Shown one piece after another: positions 32,483-38,770 of a stretch of DNA of 64,000 bases (position 1 is the stretch's first letter; every line of letters begins with the position of its first letter). The translations under genes were made by a program, and so were the position numbers. This DNA is from Halarcobacter mediterraneus (GTDB taxonomy: Bacteria; Campylobacterota; Campylobacteria; Campylobacterales; Arcobacteraceae): the NCBI RefSeq assembly GCF_004116625.1, contig NZ_NXIE01000005.1, positions 186,001 to 250,000 of the forward strand, read 5' to 3'. The notes below the pieces were generated by a model. That model had not been told where the DNA came from. It made no database searches and saw nothing but the letters and a program-made list of their open reading frames with translations.

Positions 32483-34111
32483 ATGCTTAAACCTAGAATA
32501 AAATTATCAACTTTAATTATAATATTTTTGACTTTTTTCTTAGTTGTATTTTTTATTCTTCGTTATTATCTTATTGAAAATACAAAATTAAAATATTTGA
32601 AAAATGAAAGAATTCTTTTTTATAAACTCCAAAATGAGTCAAATGCATTATTAACTTATATTTTACATCAGTTTAGTAATGAAAAAAATAATCTAAAAGA
32701 AATACATGAAAAAGCATATAATCAAGTAATTTTAAATGGATATGATAATTCTTTAGATGAAATTTATAATAAAATAAATGAAGGCTTCATTTCAAAACCT
32801 TATAATATATATATAACAGATAATAATTATATTATTGTAAATACTACATATAAACCTGATATAGGTTTTAACTTAAGTTTTGCAAAAGAGAGTTTTGAAA
32901 AAAATAAAAAAGAAAATTTGCTTGAAGTTACAGCTCCCATATTTGAATCATATTCTCAAAAGTTTTTTAGTTATACAGATTATTTTTTACCCAATTCAAA
33001 TAGAATTTTTCAAGTAAGCTATACTTATCAAAATACAGATGATAGACTTAATAAGATATATTCTTTGGTAAATAAAAATACTACTGTTGCTAATTATAGG
33101 GCATATTTAGTTTTAAAGGATGGTTATATTGGTGATTTTATCTTTAAAAAGTTTAAAGGTCGTAAACTGACATTAGACGAAATGGAAAAAGTAAAAGAAG
33201 ATGCAATAAAAATTTTTAATAGGGTTGGAAAAACTAAATTAATTGAAGATAATCTAAAAATAGATAATAATGAGTATAAAGTTTTGTATTCAAAACAAGA
33301 GTCAGTAATATTTGATGATATTCAAATTTTGTATAGTCTTACTTTTGATAAAAGTTTTTTAGAGAATGAAATAAATAAAATAAATATAATTTCTATTTTT
33401 TTACTTTTAGTAGGTTTAGCTATTTTCTTTATTCTTTTTAAATTAAGATACAAAGAAATCTTATTAAAACAGAAAGATAAATTTATAAAACACTCTGTCC
33501 ATGAGATAAAAACGCCTTTAAGTATAATTCTTTTAAATAATCAATTACGAAATAAAATGAAAGGGAAAGATAAATATTCTTTTAAAATAGAAGCAGCAAT
33601 AAAAACTCTACAAAACTCCTATGATGATATGACTTTTTTAATGACAAAAGATAAGTTAGAATATAAAATTGAGGAAATTGAGCTAAAAACTTTTTTAATT
33701 GAAAGAGTAGATTATTTTTCTACAATTGCTAAATCTCAAGGAAAAGAAATAGTTTTGAATACAAATAGTAATTGTGGTGTATATATAACTAATATAGAAT
33801 TAACTAGATTAATTGATAATAATCTATCAAATGCAATAAAATATAGTGAATTACATTCAAAAATAGAAGTTTACTTAGAAAAGAATATATTAAAGTTTAT
33901 TACAAAAGGTAATGAAATAATTGAAAAAAAAGCTATTTTTGATAAATATAAACGAGAAGAAAGTTCTATAGGTGGACATGGTTTAGGTTTAAGTATTGTA
34001 AAAGATATAATTAATAAATATCAGATTAAAGTAGAGGTTGAAAGAAAAAATATGAGAAATATTTTTATTTATCATTTTAAATGCCACAATACTGACACAC
34101 TTGAATATTAA
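32483..34111 (+). CDS. Membrane sensor histidine kinase
   Basis: The 542-residue kinase has a membrane segment near residues 9-29, a periplasmic sensor domain of about 270 residues with no recognised fold, and a second membrane segment near 298-320. The core has H340 in KHSVHEIKTPLS, LIDNNLSNAIKYS as the N box, and GGHGLGLSIVKDI as G2. The G1 region is degenerate (LKFITKGNEII, no DxGxG), a feature seen in other kinases of this bacterial group. It ends 8 bp before an OmpR-type regulator, its expected partner. The last codons contain the first of three regulator-like direct-repeat sites. Confidence 0.9.
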   Translation: MLKPRIKLSTLIIIFLTFFLVVFFILRYYLIENTKLKYLKNERILFYKLQNESNALLTYILHQFSNEKNNLKEIHEKAYNQVILNGYDNSLDEIYNKINEGFISKPYNIYITDNNYIIVNTTYKPDIGFNLSFAKESFEKNKKENLLEVTAPIFESYSQKFFSYTDYFLPNSNRIFQVSYTYQNTDDRLNKIYSLVNKNTTVANYRAYLVLKDGYIGDFIFKKFKGRKLTLDEMEKVKEDAIKIFNRVGKTKLIEDNLKIDNNEYKVLYSKQESVIFDDIQILYSLTFDKSFLENEINKINIISIFLLLVGLAIFFILFKLRYKEILLKQKDKFIKHSVHEIKTPLSIILLNNQLRNKMKGKDKYSFKIEAAIKTLQNSYDDMTFLMTKDKLEYKIEEIELKTFLIERVDYFSTIAKSQGKEIVLNTNSNCGVYITNIELTRLIDNNLSNAIKYSELHSKIEVYLEKNILKFITKGNEIIEKKAIFDKYKREESSIGGHGLGLSIVKDIINKYQIKVEVERKNMRNIFIYHFKCHNTDTLEY

Positions 34112-34114
34112 TAT
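34082..34114 (+). promoter_or_regulatory. Direct-repeat regulator site 1 with -10-like hexamer, before the response regulator gene
   Basis: TGCCACA-ATAC-TGACACA (34082-34099) repeats a 7-mer at 11-bp spacing. Nine bases later comes TAATAT (34109-34114). It lies inside the 3' end of the kinase gene. The hexamer would place the transcript start at about the regulator's ATG, giving a nearly leaderless message, so this is the weakest of the three sites. Confidence 0.5.
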
Positions 34115-34119
34115 CAAGT

Positions 34120-34764
34120 ATGAAAATTTTTTTACTAGAAGATGATTATAGTTTAAATGAAGCTATAAAAGAATCACTTGAAACTGAAAACTATACTGTT
34201 GAAAGTTTTTATGATGGAGATGAGGCTTACTCAAAAATATCACCTCTTTATGATATTTATATATTAGATATTAATACGCCTTTTGTTGAAGGAAGTGATC
34301 TTATTGAGAAAATAAAAGGTATAAATAATAATATAAAGATTATTATGATAAGTGCAATAATTGATATTGAAAAGATTAGAGAATGTTATAAAAAAGGTTG
34401 TGATGATTATATAAAAAAACCTTTTGATATAGATGAATTACTTCTTAAAATAGAAAAACTTAAAAATAATATTGATAAATTAAAAATTAAACTTTCAGAA
34501 AAAATCTTTTATTCCTTAAATGAAAAAAAAATATATATAAATGAACAGGCATGTCAGCTTACAAAAAGAGAACAAGCTTTTTTGCACCTATTGATTTCAA
34601 ATAAAAATACAGTAGTAAATATTACTCAAATAGAAGATTATGTGTATGGAAAAAGTAAATCTTCAGAAGCTATAAGAAGTTTAGTAAAAAGAATAAGAAA
34701 AAAATTTCCAGATGACATTATTAAAACTGTAAGGGAAGAAGGTTTTATTATTTATTTAAATTGA
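34120..34764 (+). CDS. OmpR/PhoB-family response regulator
   Basis: The 214-residue protein has a receiver (LLEDDYS acidic pair D8-D9, phosphoacceptor D50 in YILDINTPF, ISAI, YIKKPFD) and a winged-helix DNA-binding domain (CQLTKREQAFLHLLISNKN; SEAIRSLVKRIRKKF as recognition helix; IKTVREEGFIIYL). Regulators of this family usually bind tandem direct repeats about 11 bp apart, which is the design of the three sites at 34082, 34762 and 36299. Likely targets are its own gene, the adjacent flagellin and the 36355 operon. The signal is unknown. Confidence 0.93.
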   Translation: MKIFLLEDDYSLNEAIKESLETENYTVESFYDGDEAYSKISPLYDIYILDINTPFVEGSDLIEKIKGINNNIKIIMISAIIDIEKIRECYKKGCDDYIKKPFDIDELLLKIEKLKNNIDKLKIKLSEKIFYSLNEKKIYINEQACQLTKREQAFLHLLISNKNTVVNITQIEDYVYGKSKSSEAIRSLVKRIRKKFPDDIIKTVREEGFIIYLN

Positions 34765-34794
34765 CATATTTCTGCCACAAATAATTTATACAAT
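34762..34794 (+). promoter_or_regulatory. Direct-repeat regulator site 2 with -10-like hexamer, before the flagellin gene
   Basis: TGACATA-TTTC-TGCCACA (34762-34779), again 11-bp spacing, is followed after nine bases by TACAAT (34789-34794). The predicted transcript start (about 34801) leaves a leader of about 30 bases before the flagellin ATG. No sigma-54 or sigma-28 flagellar promoter was recognised here. Confidence 0.65.
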
Positions 34795-34829
34795 ATCTTT
34801 AAGAATTTATTGCTAAGTTAGGTTAAAAT

Positions 34830-36281
34830 ATGTATTTAAATAATAATTTCTCATCTTTAAACAATAGTATTTTAAATCAAAAAAATACAAATCAATCTTT
34901 AAGTAAACTTTCTTCGGGTCTTAAAATAAATAAAGCTAGTGACAATGCTTCAGGATTGGCTATCTCTGATAAGTTAAGAACTCAAGCAAGTGGAATAAAA
35001 CAAGGAGTTGCAAATGCAAATAGTGCAATAGCAATGATGAATATAGCAGATAAAGCAATTGATGAATTGAGTAAAATCTTAGATACCATAAAATCAAAAG
35101 CAATACAAATGAATACTGATACAACTTCTGTAGAAGGTAGAAAAATAATAAAGACAGAAATCTTAAAACTAATTGACAATTATGATAATATCGTTTGTCG
35201 TACAAACTATAATACTATTCCTTTATTAAATGGTTGTTCGAGTCCTTTAACTTTTCAAGTTGGAAGTAGGGATAAAGATACAGTAAATGTAAATATTAAT
35301 TCAATTGAGTCAAGAAATATGGGAGATATAAATCCGAACAAATTAATAAATTTTATTACAGGGTTTAATACTCTTCTTCCATCTGAATCAATAGGTAATA
35401 TAAATGATGGTGTTATATTAAGTAATAATTTACAAAATACTGTTGAATATTCTTCTATGCAAGATGGGCGGTTTATGATTGAAATACCACAAGGAATTAA
35501 GAACCTTACTTTATATCTTAATGAAGCAACATTTGATGATACTTTTCAAGTTTTTACAAAAAGTGGTAAACACATTGCTGGAACAGCTTCTTCTGATAGT
35601 AGTTGGCAAGCTGGTTCTAATCCTGAAAATATTATATCTTTAAATCCTGAAAAGTTTGATATCAATGCATCCTATTTAGATGAATTATCTAATCCTAGTA
35701 TACCTCTTACATATTATGGTCCTTATAATAGCAGTGATGGTATGACAAATGACCCAAGTTATGAAACAGATGTAATATATACAAATAAAAATGGTGTTTC
35801 TATTACTAAAACTATTAAACAATGGGAAGAAATGGTAGTTATTCCTGATGTTACAGAAACATTAGTAATTTTTGTAAATGGTGTAGGTTCTTATGAAACT
35901 TCTGCTGAATGGCAGAATCCATTATTAAAAAATCAAAATGAAATGTGTAATTGTGATAATCTAATTTTAGAAAGAAATGATGAGAGCCCAGATCTAAAAA
36001 CACAAGCCAAAATATTAATGGATGTTGTTGATACTTCTTTATCTCAATTAAATTCAACAAGAAGTGATATAGCAGCAGCTACAAATCAATTAGAATCTTC
36101 AGTGAGGAATTCTTTAACAAATTATACAAATATAAAAAATGCCGAAAGTATAATAAGAGATGTTGATTATGCTAAAGAAAGTGCAAACTTTAATAAGTTG
36201 AATATTATAAATCAAGCAGGTTCTTTTGTAGAAGTTCAAAAAAATGAAACTATGAAAAGAGTATTAGACTTATTAAAATAA
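34830..36281 (+). CDS. Divergent flagellin with enlarged central domain
   Basis: The 483-residue protein has typical flagellin ends: NQSLSKLSSGLKINKASDNA, GLAISDKLRTQASGIKQG at the N-terminus and NQLESSVRNSLTNYTNIKNA, ESIIRDVDYAKESANFNKL at the C-terminus. Between them (about residues 140-395) is a region I cannot place, with IEIPQGIKNLTLYLNEATF and Asn/Ser-rich stretches. It has Cys residues (VCRTNY, GCSSP, MCNCDN), unusual for a flagellin, which is normally Cys-free. No other flagellar gene is near. It stands behind a two-component system and regulator site 2, so it may be an inducible or accessory filament protein. Confidence 0.85.
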   Translation: MYLNNNFSSLNNSILNQKNTNQSLSKLSSGLKINKASDNASGLAISDKLRTQASGIKQGVANANSAIAMMNIADKAIDELSKILDTIKSKAIQMNTDTTSVEGRKIIKTEILKLIDNYDNIVCRTNYNTIPLLNGCSSPLTFQVGSRDKDTVNVNINSIESRNMGDINPNKLINFITGFNTLLPSESIGNINDGVILSNNLQNTVEYSSMQDGRFMIEIPQGIKNLTLYLNEATFDDTFQVFTKSGKHIAGTASSDSSWQAGSNPENIISLNPEKFDINASYLDELSNPSIPLTYYGPYNSSDGMTNDPSYETDVIYTNKNGVSITKTIKQWEEMVVIPDVTETLVIFVNGVGSYETSAEWQNPLLKNQNEMCNCDNLILERNDESPDLKTQAKILMDVVDTSLSQLNSTRSDIAAATNQLESSVRNSLTNYTNIKNAESIIRDVDYAKESANFNKLNIINQAGSFVEVQKNETMKRVLDLLK

Positions 36282-36298
36282 TTTCCAAAATAAAAAAT

Positions 36299-36331
36299 TG
36301 ACACATAACTGACACATATAACATTTATAAT
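36299..36331 (+). promoter_or_regulatory. Direct-repeat regulator site 3 with consensus -10, before the 36355 operon
   Basis: TGACACA-TAAC-TGACACA (36299-36316) is a perfect 7-mer direct repeat at 11-bp spacing. Nine bases later comes TATAAT (36326-36331), a perfect -10, and no -35 hexamer is seen. This is the layout of a PhoB-type activated promoter, in which the repeats replace the -35. Confidence 0.75.
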
Positions 36332-36354: not shown

Positions 36355-36765
36355 ATGAATTTAGAGCAATTATACAATAAATATTTAGAAATATTAAACT
36401 TTGAAATAAAATATTTTAATCACAAACCAACTGAACTTCGTCATCTTATAGGTAGATTAGGGGAATTTTATTGTGCAATAAAAACTAATGGAACCTTAGC
36501 CTTAGAAGTAAATCAACATGGACATGATGTGATAGCAAAAGATGGAAGTAAAATAAGTGTAAAAACTACAGCACAAACTAGTGGCTTCATCACATTAAAC
36601 CCAAGAACATTAGATAAAGTTGATAAATTAATGATTATCATATATCAAAATAATACTTTTGAAGATATATATTTTGGAGACTACCAACCACTGATTGAAA
36701 ATACAAGAATCTATGATAATAAATATGAAATAGATATCTCTAAAATAAAACGAATCAATACATAA
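36355..36765 (+). CDS. Small nuclease-like protein (possible PD-(D/E)xK fold, DUF6998-like)
   Basis: The 136-residue protein is not firmly assigned. GRLGEFYCAIKTNG (E37), then GHDVIAKDGSKISVK (D58 and K70) has the spacing of a restriction-endonuclease-like fold, although the position two before the Lys is Ser rather than Asp/Glu. It reminds me of the DUF6998 family. It could be a nuclease or a non-catalytic relative. It is the first gene after regulator site 3 and starts a run of four same-strand genes. Confidence 0.6.
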   Translation: MNLEQLYNKYLEILNFEIKYFNHKPTELRHLIGRLGEFYCAIKTNGTLALEVNQHGHDVIAKDGSKISVKTTAQTSGFITLNPRTLDKVDKLMIIIYQNNTFEDIYFGDYQPLIENTRIYDNKYEIDISKIKRINT

Positions 36766-36788: not shown

Positions 36789-36950
36789 ATGATTGTAAAT
36801 TCAACTTTATATAAATATATATGCCCAAAATGCAAAGAGAGTATGGTAGTACCTATACTTATAGAAGATGATACTATCTCAAAAAAAGATGGTATGCAGT
36901 TTGTGTGTCCCAAATGTGGCATTGGTATGAATAAAAGAAATATAAATTAA
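36789..36950 (+). CDS. Very small zinc-ribbon protein
   Basis: ATG at 36789 opens 53 codons ending TAA at 36950. The protein has two CPKC knuckles, one near residue 13 (YICPKCKESM) and one near 42 (VCPKCGIGM), separated by about 25 residues, which is a clear zinc ribbon. It lies 23 bp after the nuclease-like gene and 30 bp before the EcsC-like gene, so it is probably cotranscribed. Possible roles are nucleic-acid or protein contact; nothing more can be said. Confidence 0.7.
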   Translation: MIVNSTLYKYICPKCKESMVVPILIEDDTISKKDGMQFVCPKCGIGMNKRNIN

Positions 36951-36980: not shown

Positions 36981-37643
36981 ATGAGTAATGAAATAGTTGA
37001 AGATAAACCACGTTTTCTTAAAGCTACAGAGTCAATATTAGCAGAACCAGAAAATCTAAAAAAACAGGCAACACAAACTTTAGACAAATATAGAAAATCA
37101 CATCCCGATATATCTGAAGATGAAGTTAAATTAATGGTCTCTAAAAAAATAATTTCAAAGTACAGCTATTATGCTGCATTTTCAGGGGGTACAACAGCAC
37201 TTTCAGGGATTATCCCTGGAATTGGCACAGCTGTTGCAATTGGCGGTGGTGCGAGTGCAGATGCAATAGCTTGTATAAAGTTTCAAATAGAAATGACTAT
37301 GGAAATTGCAACAGTATATGAGCATGATATATTAAAAGAAGAAGAAAAAAATCTTTGTTTTATTATTGCAGGTCTTGGAAGCATTAATTATATGGGAAAA
37401 GAGGGATCTAAGAAGGTAGCCTCAAAAGCATTTATTCGATTAGTTAAGGAGCATTTAAAAGGAACAACTCTTCAAATAATAAAAGAAATATTTAAAAAGC
37501 TTGGCATTACATTTACACGAAAAGCTTTGGAAAAAGCAATTCCCTTTGGAATAGGAGTCATTATAGGTTTTTCAGTTAATAAATTAATTACTAAGTTTGT
37601 TGGTAATAGAGCTATTGATTTTTTTACAGCTGATTCAAAATAA
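36981..37643 (+). CDS. EcsC/DUF697-like membrane-associated protein
   Basis: The 220-residue protein has a Gly-rich hydrophobic hairpin at about 70-105 (GGTTALSGIIPGIGTAV, AIGGGASADAIACIKFQIEM) followed by MEIATVYEHDI, which resembles the EcsC and DUF697 type families. A second hydrophobic stretch is near 192-210 (AIPFGIGVIIGFSVNKLI). The N-terminal 60 residues are charged and helical. The ribosome site is AAAAAGGAAT. It lies 8 bp before the HEPN-like gene. The function of the family is not established; membrane association is inferred. Confidence 0.6.
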   Translation: MSNEIVEDKPRFLKATESILAEPENLKKQATQTLDKYRKSHPDISEDEVKLMVSKKIISKYSYYAAFSGGTTALSGIIPGIGTAVAIGGGASADAIACIKFQIEMTMEIATVYEHDILKEEEKNLCFIIAGLGSINYMGKEGSKKVASKAFIRLVKEHLKGTTLQIIKEIFKKLGITFTRKALEKAIPFGIGVIIGFSVNKLITKFVGNRAIDFFTADSK

Positions 37644-37651
37644 TATTCAAT

Positions 37652-38770
37652 ATGCAAAACCTCATAATCCTTTACAACCCATATTACCAAAAAGATGTTA
37701 TACAACAACATCTAAAGCTACTAATCAAAAATGAAAAAGTAGCTTTTGGTAAGGTTAAGTCAAAACTTAAAAATCAAGAACATGGTTTTCAAAAGCAATT
37801 AGAATTGATTTATAAAGATGTAGATGAGAAAAACTATCTTCAACTTTTTTTAACTGATTATTCAAGTATTTATGTGGCAAAAGTTACAAAAGTTTCCAAT
37901 GAAGATTATTCAAATCTTGCTCCAACTTATTATAGAGAAAAAAATCTTGAGGTTGAGACATGGTTTATTATAAAAGATTTAAGAGAGTTAGTACATAATA
38001 ACTTTCAAGAAACAAGAGACAATATCTTAGCAAATCTTACAGCCAAAAACTTTGGAAATCATACCTATGCTGTTTATGGAAATAATTATGTTTATCCACT
38101 TCTTGTAGATATGAAACATGAGATTGATTATTTTGAGTATGATGATGAAAACTTTAGATATTATCCTGATATGTTTAAATCAGAAAGATTTTTACGGATA
38201 AAACAAAACCTTATAGAATACAGCTTTGGTTCAAAATATATACACTATTTTCATCCAGATTCTTTGACAAACATAATCTCAGCACAAATGGAACTACAAG
38301 AGCATAAAGAAGATTTAACCTATGATTTTAGTTCAGTGGTTATAAAGTATAGTAAAACAATAGAACAAGAGATATATTCTTTTTCAAAAATTTTATTCAA
38401 ATATATACTTGAAAAAAATCCAAGTTTTGAAAATATCTCATATAGTGTGCAAGGCTGTGAATATACTCTTAGTGATATTTTTTACAATAAACCAAATTTT
38501 GGTACCTATAAATATCTTTTAAAAAATACTGAAATATGTGACTTTATAATAAAACATTTTGAAAAATACATTAGTTATTTTATTCAAAAAAAGTTTATTT
38601 ATTATATTAATTCAGTAAAAGAACTTAGAAATAAAATAGTTCATGAAAAAGCTGCAACAATAGATGAGGCTAATAAGTTAAGAAACAAAGTTTTAGGTGT
38701 ATCAGAAGAAAGTATTTTAGTGGAATTAATAAAAATGAAATTAAATCTAATAAAACTAAACATAAAATAA
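37652..38770 (+). CDS. Conserved protein with C-terminal HEPN-like motif (HP0729-like)
   Basis: The 372-residue protein opens LIILYNPYYQKDVIQQHLK and contains DYSSIYVAKVTKV; this resembles a Campylobacterota family that I recall as HP0729-like, with no known function. The C-terminal ~60 residues are helical and include ELRNKIVHEKAATIDEA, in which R326 and H331 form an Rx4H motif, the mark of HEPN ribonucleases. HEPN domains are frequent in toxin-antitoxin and anti-phage systems. It closes the four-gene run started at 36355. Whether it is an active RNase is inference. Confidence 0.6.
   Translation: MQNLIILYNPYYQKDVIQQHLKLLIKNEKVAFGKVKSKLKNQEHGFQKQLELIYKDVDEKNYLQLFLTDYSSIYVAKVTKVSNEDYSNLAPTYYREKNLEVETWFIIKDLRELVHNNFQETRDNILANLTAKNFGNHTYAVYGNNYVYPLLVDMKHEIDYFEYDDENFRYYPDMFKSERFLRIKQNLIEYSFGSKYIHYFHPDSLTNIISAQMELQEHKEDLTYDFSSVVIKYSKTIEQEIYSFSKILFKYILEKNPSFENISYSVQGCEYTLSDIFYNKPNFGTYKYLLKNTEICDFIIKHFEKYISYFIQKKFIYYINSVKELRNKIVHEKAATIDEANKLRNKVLGVSEESILVELIKMKLNLIKLNIK

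Follow-up and report, generated by a model that had tools for sequence, protein, structure and literature searches.

A predicted autoregulated, PhoB-like two-component switch with a small surface and flagellar regulon in Halarcobacter mediterraneus

A stretch of 64,000 nucleotides (nt) of the Halarcobacter mediterraneus genome (contig NZ_NXIE01000005.1, positions 186,001 to 250,000; hereafter the window) carries a sensor histidine kinase and an OmpR/PhoB-type response regulator, together with three copies of a direct-repeat box that each lie at a fixed distance ahead of a -10 element. We consider it very probable that these form an autoregulated, PhoB-like switch of the OmpR family serving a small surface and flagellar regulon, in which the regulator would activate three promoters: its own, that of an accessory flagellin and that of an inserted operon.

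The three promoter sites

The features at the core of the locus are as follows (positions in the window; aa, amino acids).

32483..34111, + strand: sensor histidine kinase; HisKA and HATPase_c by Pfam, HisKA below its cut-off
34082..34099, + strand: site 1, direct-repeat box TGCCACA-ATAC-TGACACA within the 3' end of the kinase gene; gap to the -10 CTTGAATAT
34109..34114, + strand: -10 TAATAT of site 1, putative regulator promoter, after the fixed 9-nt gap; predicted start at about the A of the ATG at 34120
34120..34764, + strand: OmpR/PhoB-type response regulator; Response_reg and Trans_reg_C (Pfam)
34762..34779, + strand: site 2, direct-repeat box TGACATA-TTTC-TGCCACA ahead of the flagellin; gap AATAATTTA
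34789..34794, + strand: -10 TACAAT of site 2, putative flagellin promoter; 9-nt gap
34830..36281, + strand: accessory flagellin, 483 aa; Flagellin_N and Flagellin_C (Pfam)
36299..36316, + strand: site 3, direct-repeat box TGACACA-TAAC-TGACACA ahead of the inserted operon; gap TATAACATT
36326..36331, + strand: -10 TATAAT of site 3, putative inserted-operon promoter; 9-nt gap

Each box is 18 base pairs (bp) long with a repeat period of 11 bp, and is separated by exactly 9 nt from its -10 hexamer. These values are read directly at all three sites, as an earlier note on this DNA had proposed. That note placed the pattern TG(A/C)CA(C/T)A-N4-TG(A/C)CACA at 34082, 34762 and 36299, ahead of an OmpR-type regulator, a flagellin and a nuclease-like operon; the coordinates and sequences are correct to the base, and the gene calls bear out the order of sites and genes. 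The TTGACA contained in sites 2 and 3 was considered as an ordinary -35 element, and is ruled out by its spacing of 22 nt from the -10.

The sites occur far above chance. Within the window a search allowing at most one mismatch returns four matches, against 0.09 expected in shuffled sequences. The fourth (36921, minus strand, one mismatch) lies antisense to the CPKCG codons of a zinc-ribbon open reading frame (ORF), and is probably coincidental. Both pattern and model searches were made genome-wide. The exact pattern is present only at the three sites in the 2.83-Mb genome (2,828,874 bases, 29 contigs). Over 104 genomes of the family Arcobacteraceae, the box with TANNNT at the fixed distance gives 10 matches, and the reversed pattern with TANNNT gives none. 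With a sequence-only covariance model sites 1 to 3 are the top three matches in the genome, headed by site 3. The fourth (E = 0.002) falls in the promoter of a DASS transporter, and the lower ranks look like chance. Random coding positions are not favoured by the model; hits to them as frequent as those to promoters were one of two outcomes that the note had said would refute its proposal, and neither outcome was obtained.

Conservation of the box beside orthologous pairs

Sixteen further genomes of the family hold orthologs of the regulator (49-68% identity); the identities of other regulators are ~46% or below. A matrix derived from the window's three sites alone was run over 22 orthologous loci, with significance assessed from 200 dinucleotide shuffles of each. 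At 19 of the 22 (or 19 of the 20 that have a convincing site) the best match is convincing and falls no more than 300 bp from the pair. For 18 of these 19 the score was reached by 0-3 of the 200 shuffles, L056 being the weakest with 9. At locus L050 the best match precedes a gene for a hook protein within the cluster. The 19 include L124, L126 and L129, which come from outside the family.

The tandem repeats that recur at these loci are conserved and strictly spaced. Half-site pairs at the 19 loci have a period of 11 bp in 32 instances, and at most two instances of any other period between 7 and 22. TAnnnT follows at an offset of 9 in 26 of the 32, with at most five at any other offset. Conservation next to orthologous regulator and flagellin genes, proposed earlier as a check, is found for sites 1 and 2 and is lacking for site 3, whose operon is probably an insertion. 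Site 2 has equivalents ahead of the flagellin in G054 and G012. Site 1 had been called the least certain, yet is the best conserved of the three: the box and its 9-nt gap occupy the same place, at the 3' end of the kinase gene and directly ahead of the regulator, in eight other genomes (G054, G036, G092, G001, G004, G012, G031 (contig 65) and G025).

The kinase and the regulator

The regulator has the domains of the OmpR/PhoB family and an intact phosphorylation pocket (D8, D9, D50, S78 and K100). In its recognition helix A184, R186, K190, R191, R193 and K195 are invariant in 18 orthologs. The protein is not PhoB itself, scoring 82 bits with TIGR02154 against an equivalog cut-off of 296.2, and no pst or pho genes were recognised among the box targets found.

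The adjacent kinase has the expected H-, N- and G-boxes; the H-box HEIKTPL, the N-box and GxGxG are invariant among its orthologs. An AlphaFold2 model (predicted local distance difference test score 82.7) begins with a long helix, followed by two stacked alpha/beta units at residues ~105-290, a second long helix and then the kinase core. From the order of secondary structure, the two stacked units appear to be a double-PAS/Cache-like sensor. A fold search with the model matched other kinases and phytochromes, at low template-modelling scores, and pointed to no ligand. The gene starts 20 bp downstream of ftsH-psd, and is probably expressed constitutively with that operon.

An intragenic promoter and a predicted leaderless message

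In all nine genomes with site 1 the ATG of the regulator follows the -10 after 5-6 nt. A transcription start 6-7 nt past the -10 would therefore coincide with the A of the start codon or lie next to it, so that the regulator mRNA is predicted to be leaderless. The nearly leaderless message suggested earlier is in keeping with this spacing, and with the absence of a Shine-Dalgarno-like sequence from eight of the nine regulator genes. In a sister clade of nine (tree support 100/99) the box is missing at this position, and a Shine-Dalgarno-like sequence is present at all nine genes. The contrast between the two sets has p = 4e-4, which is only indicative, since the sequences share ancestry and do not count as independent. 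The locus makes a clean evolutionary example: one set of genomes has an intragenic autoregulatory promoter that is predicted to give a leaderless message, and in the sister clade a Shine-Dalgarno start has taken its place.

Most of the kinase genes read the box in the usual frame (CHN..T and similar). In G031 (contig 65) it lies in another frame, and in G025 it is located past the kinase stop codon; it is therefore the DNA and not the peptide that is kept. One kinase gene of G031 (L058:6558-8156) has an in-frame stop, with box and regulator still present; this genome also has a second, clade-B pair.

The accessory flagellin and other box-associated genes

The accessory flagellin is distinct from the two tandem main flagellins (G000:C2:642.8-646.0 kb), upstream of which the genome-wide search gave no model match. 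Four genomes have accessory flagellins under boxes of this type. The flagellin gene of G036 and the box-controlled regulator gene overlap at the end of the latter, and a box-controlled neighbour in this genome encodes a 1053-aa FlgE/F/G-like hook protein. Other box-controlled neighbours are autotransporters (G031 and G025), a 387-aa secreted protein (G036 and G092) and an operon with an LprI-type protein (G012). By their predicted products, exported or surface proteins are the theme of the targets.

The genomes G023 and G024 have the accessory flagellin (59%) and no ortholog of the pair. In G023 (L148) the box and -10 are retained and the flagellin has a premature stop; in G024 (L147) the box is retained and the -10 is deleted. 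Such decay is what loss of an activator would be expected to allow, although two cases are not proof. This provides a second evolutionary example, in which operator and flagellin are in decay in genomes that do not have the regulator.

Two further arrangements were observed at these loci. The hook-like protein gene of G036 (L050:5186-9908) is convergent to the accessory flagellin and lies downstream of a candidate DUF692/DUF2063-looking pair; genes similar to that pair adjoin the regulator in L051. In the sister clade, an acidic protein of 40-62 aa with the conserved end I(D/E)EEF(E/D)EDDxxxWIKL is encoded under a box, divergently and upstream of the kinase (L059:10613-10753, with equivalents in L057 and L060-L064). 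It has no Pfam match. Matches to it occur in seven of the 104 family genomes, every one beside this two-component pair, and nowhere else in the family.

The operon downstream of site 3

Site 3 precedes four genes.

36355..36765, + strand: DUF6998 protein (Pfam PF22522), nuclease-like by sequence pattern only
36789..36950, + strand: small zinc-ribbon ORF, 53 aa, with CxxC pairs; weak Pfam zinc-ribbon matches below cut-off
36981..37643, + strand: EcsC-like protein, also matching the PADLOC candidate defence family PDC-S29
37652..38770, + strand: HP0729 family protein (NCBIfam NF041917, 492.6 bits against a cut-off of 250)

In G054 the gene order is ftsH-psd-kinase-regulator-flagellin-leuA, and nothing was recognised between the last two. 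At this point the window carries the DUF6998 operon together with a GGDEF gene. Since G054 is without the operon and relatives of the DUF6998 protein occur in only one other genome of the family, the operon is probably a recent insertion, either put under the third box or arriving with it. It may be defence-related cargo, for which the PDC-S29 resemblance is only a lead.

Proposed mechanism and its alternatives

In the mechanism we favour, the kinase would sense a ligand through its double-PAS/Cache-like domain and phosphorylate the regulator; a head-to-tail dimer of the regulator would then occupy both 7-bp half-sites of TG(A/C)CA(C/T)A-N4-TG(A/C)CACA. The box occupies the -35 position, and bound regulator would therefore, in the manner of PhoB, bring sigma70 polymerase to the -10 that lies 9 nt further on. 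The first promoter to be turned on would be the regulator's own, inside the end of the kinase gene, giving a leaderless mRNA. The second would be that of the accessory flagellin, and the third that of the DUF6998/zinc-ribbon/EcsC-like/HP0729 operon. With positive feedback through site 1 and the kinase read from the ftsH-psd side, a constant sensor would be combined with an inducible regulator. The earlier proposal of an autoregulated system that turns on a flagellin and an operon together is supported to this extent: the sites, their geometry, their uniqueness and conservation, and the decay in genomes without the pair are observed, and from these we infer binding of the regulator to the boxes, activation from the -35 position (by analogy with PhoB) and the joint response.

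Four observations weigh against this mechanism. No counterpart of site 3 is conserved, its operon probably being an insertion that is almost restricted to this genome. At L131 and L132, two orthologous loci at greater distance, the three-site matrix finds nothing significant. G025 has AAGGAAAG near its regulator start. Lastly, regulators paralogous to this one, with recognition helices like its own, have boxes resembling these near their respective targets, so cross-binding between systems is possible.

The last point leads to the best of the alternatives, that the boxes are genuine OmpR-family operators whose main partner is a paralogous regulator, or which several regulators share, with no private regulon. 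The genome holds 14 regulator matches at E <= 1e-20, and similar boxes are found near other regulators, at the DASS transporter here and in relatives, and at a gene for a twin-arginine translocation (Tat)-exported oxidoreductase-like protein in G057. Yet all three exact matches in the genome adjoin this one pair, and the strongest model matches across the family are mostly beside its orthologs. Many of those loci trained the model, but the three-site matrix used this genome only. We therefore regard this explanation as unlikely.

The box ahead of the DASS transporter (G000:C1:63492, L078) was considered as a member of the regulon and rejected; it has counterparts in L068, L122 and L123, and probably serves a paralogous regulator as operator. 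Another conserved box of this type lies ahead of an apparent acetate kinase gene in L104 (G058) and L114 (G065), from the same genus. Elsewhere in the H. mediterraneus genome, TGACATA-N4-TGACATA precedes another response-regulator gene (L007, G000:C3:114907), followed by TATCAT at 7 nt and not 9.

Slightly less probable again is that the regulator represses from a box overlapping the -35 region. Position by itself does not decide the matter, and for PhoB a dual role, set by where its site lies, has been described (PMC10294691). Against repression, the layout equals that of the PhoB-activated pstS and phoA promoters, and there is no -35 hexamer at 16-18 nt from the -10, TTGACA in sites 2 and 3 being too distant; the core promoter therefore looks activator-dependent. 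Finally, chance resemblance, with site 1 as a by-product of kinase codons, draws on the location of that site in coding sequence and can be set aside in view of the shuffles, the reversed controls, the period and offset tests and the retention of the DNA across different reading frames.

The activator mechanism might be extended. In G036 the pair, the accessory flagellin and the 1053-aa hook-like protein form one box-controlled cluster, and on this basis we tentatively suggest that, in this family without FliA, a self-amplifying OmpR-type switch replaces a sigma-factor hierarchy for an alternative filament set. The pair would swap filament or hook, and other surface proteins, on an outside signal, with a constant sensor and a leaderless regulator message begun inside the sensor gene. 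We think this less likely than not.

Flagellar sigma factors and significance

No FliA above cut-off was found in this genome or in 24 other Arcobacteraceae (25 genomes tested). Sigma54_DBD is absent from this genome; sigma54 is present in some relatives, for example G054. The genome was thus found to encode neither the sigma28 nor the sigma54 of a FliA- or RpoN-dependent flagellin. The need for a different kind of flagellar control had already been emphasised in the A. butzleri genome paper (PMC2147049). Given the absence of FliA from the Arcobacteraceae tested and of RpoN here, the switch offers a testable route of flagellin control. For at least one flagellin of the Arcobacteraceae the locus supplies a concrete candidate for each of regulator, operator and promoter, the scope of the route being one accessory flagellin and not the main flagella.

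Comparison with known systems

Systems of this kind (OmpR/PhoB-type two-component) are already known, and this particular locus is new. Among the titles and abstracts listed in literature searches no matching relative of the system, Arcobacter flagellin regulator or autoregulated leaderless regulator was found.

The closest parallel is PhoB/PhoR of E. coli. The PhoB box consists of 7+4+7 direct repeats (PMC4415409), and activation by PhoB is reported to need strict spacing to the core promoter (PMC10294691). The pstS and phoA promoters have TGTCATA-N4-TGTCATA/TGTCACG-N9-TATAAC/TATAGT, a layout exactly as here: 7-bp half-sites, a 4-bp spacer and an 11-bp period, with the box in place of the -35 and 9 nt before the -10. 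Both systems have a regulator with receiver and winged-helix domains, and a site ahead of the regulator's own gene. They differ in the half-site, TG(A/C)CA(C/T)A here and TGTCATA for PhoB, and in the kinase, which unlike PhoR has a predicted extracytoplasmic double-PAS/Cache-like sensor. The putative targets here are surface and flagellar genes, and the autoregulatory promoter is intragenic and predicted to be leaderless, unlike those of PhoB.

RR2 of Sulfurospirillum, from tetrachloroethene (PCE) respiration, also belongs to the OmpR family and comes from the same phylum; its direct repeats overlap the -35 region, and its targets include promoters of two-component operons, as here (PMC7755780). 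Its consensus is CTATW-N17-CTATW, and its targets are respiratory with no flagellin. The FlgSR/RpoN/FliA hierarchy of Campylobacter and Helicobacter likewise places a flagellin under a two-component system, but that route uses RpoN and FliA (PMC2147049), neither of which was found in this genome.

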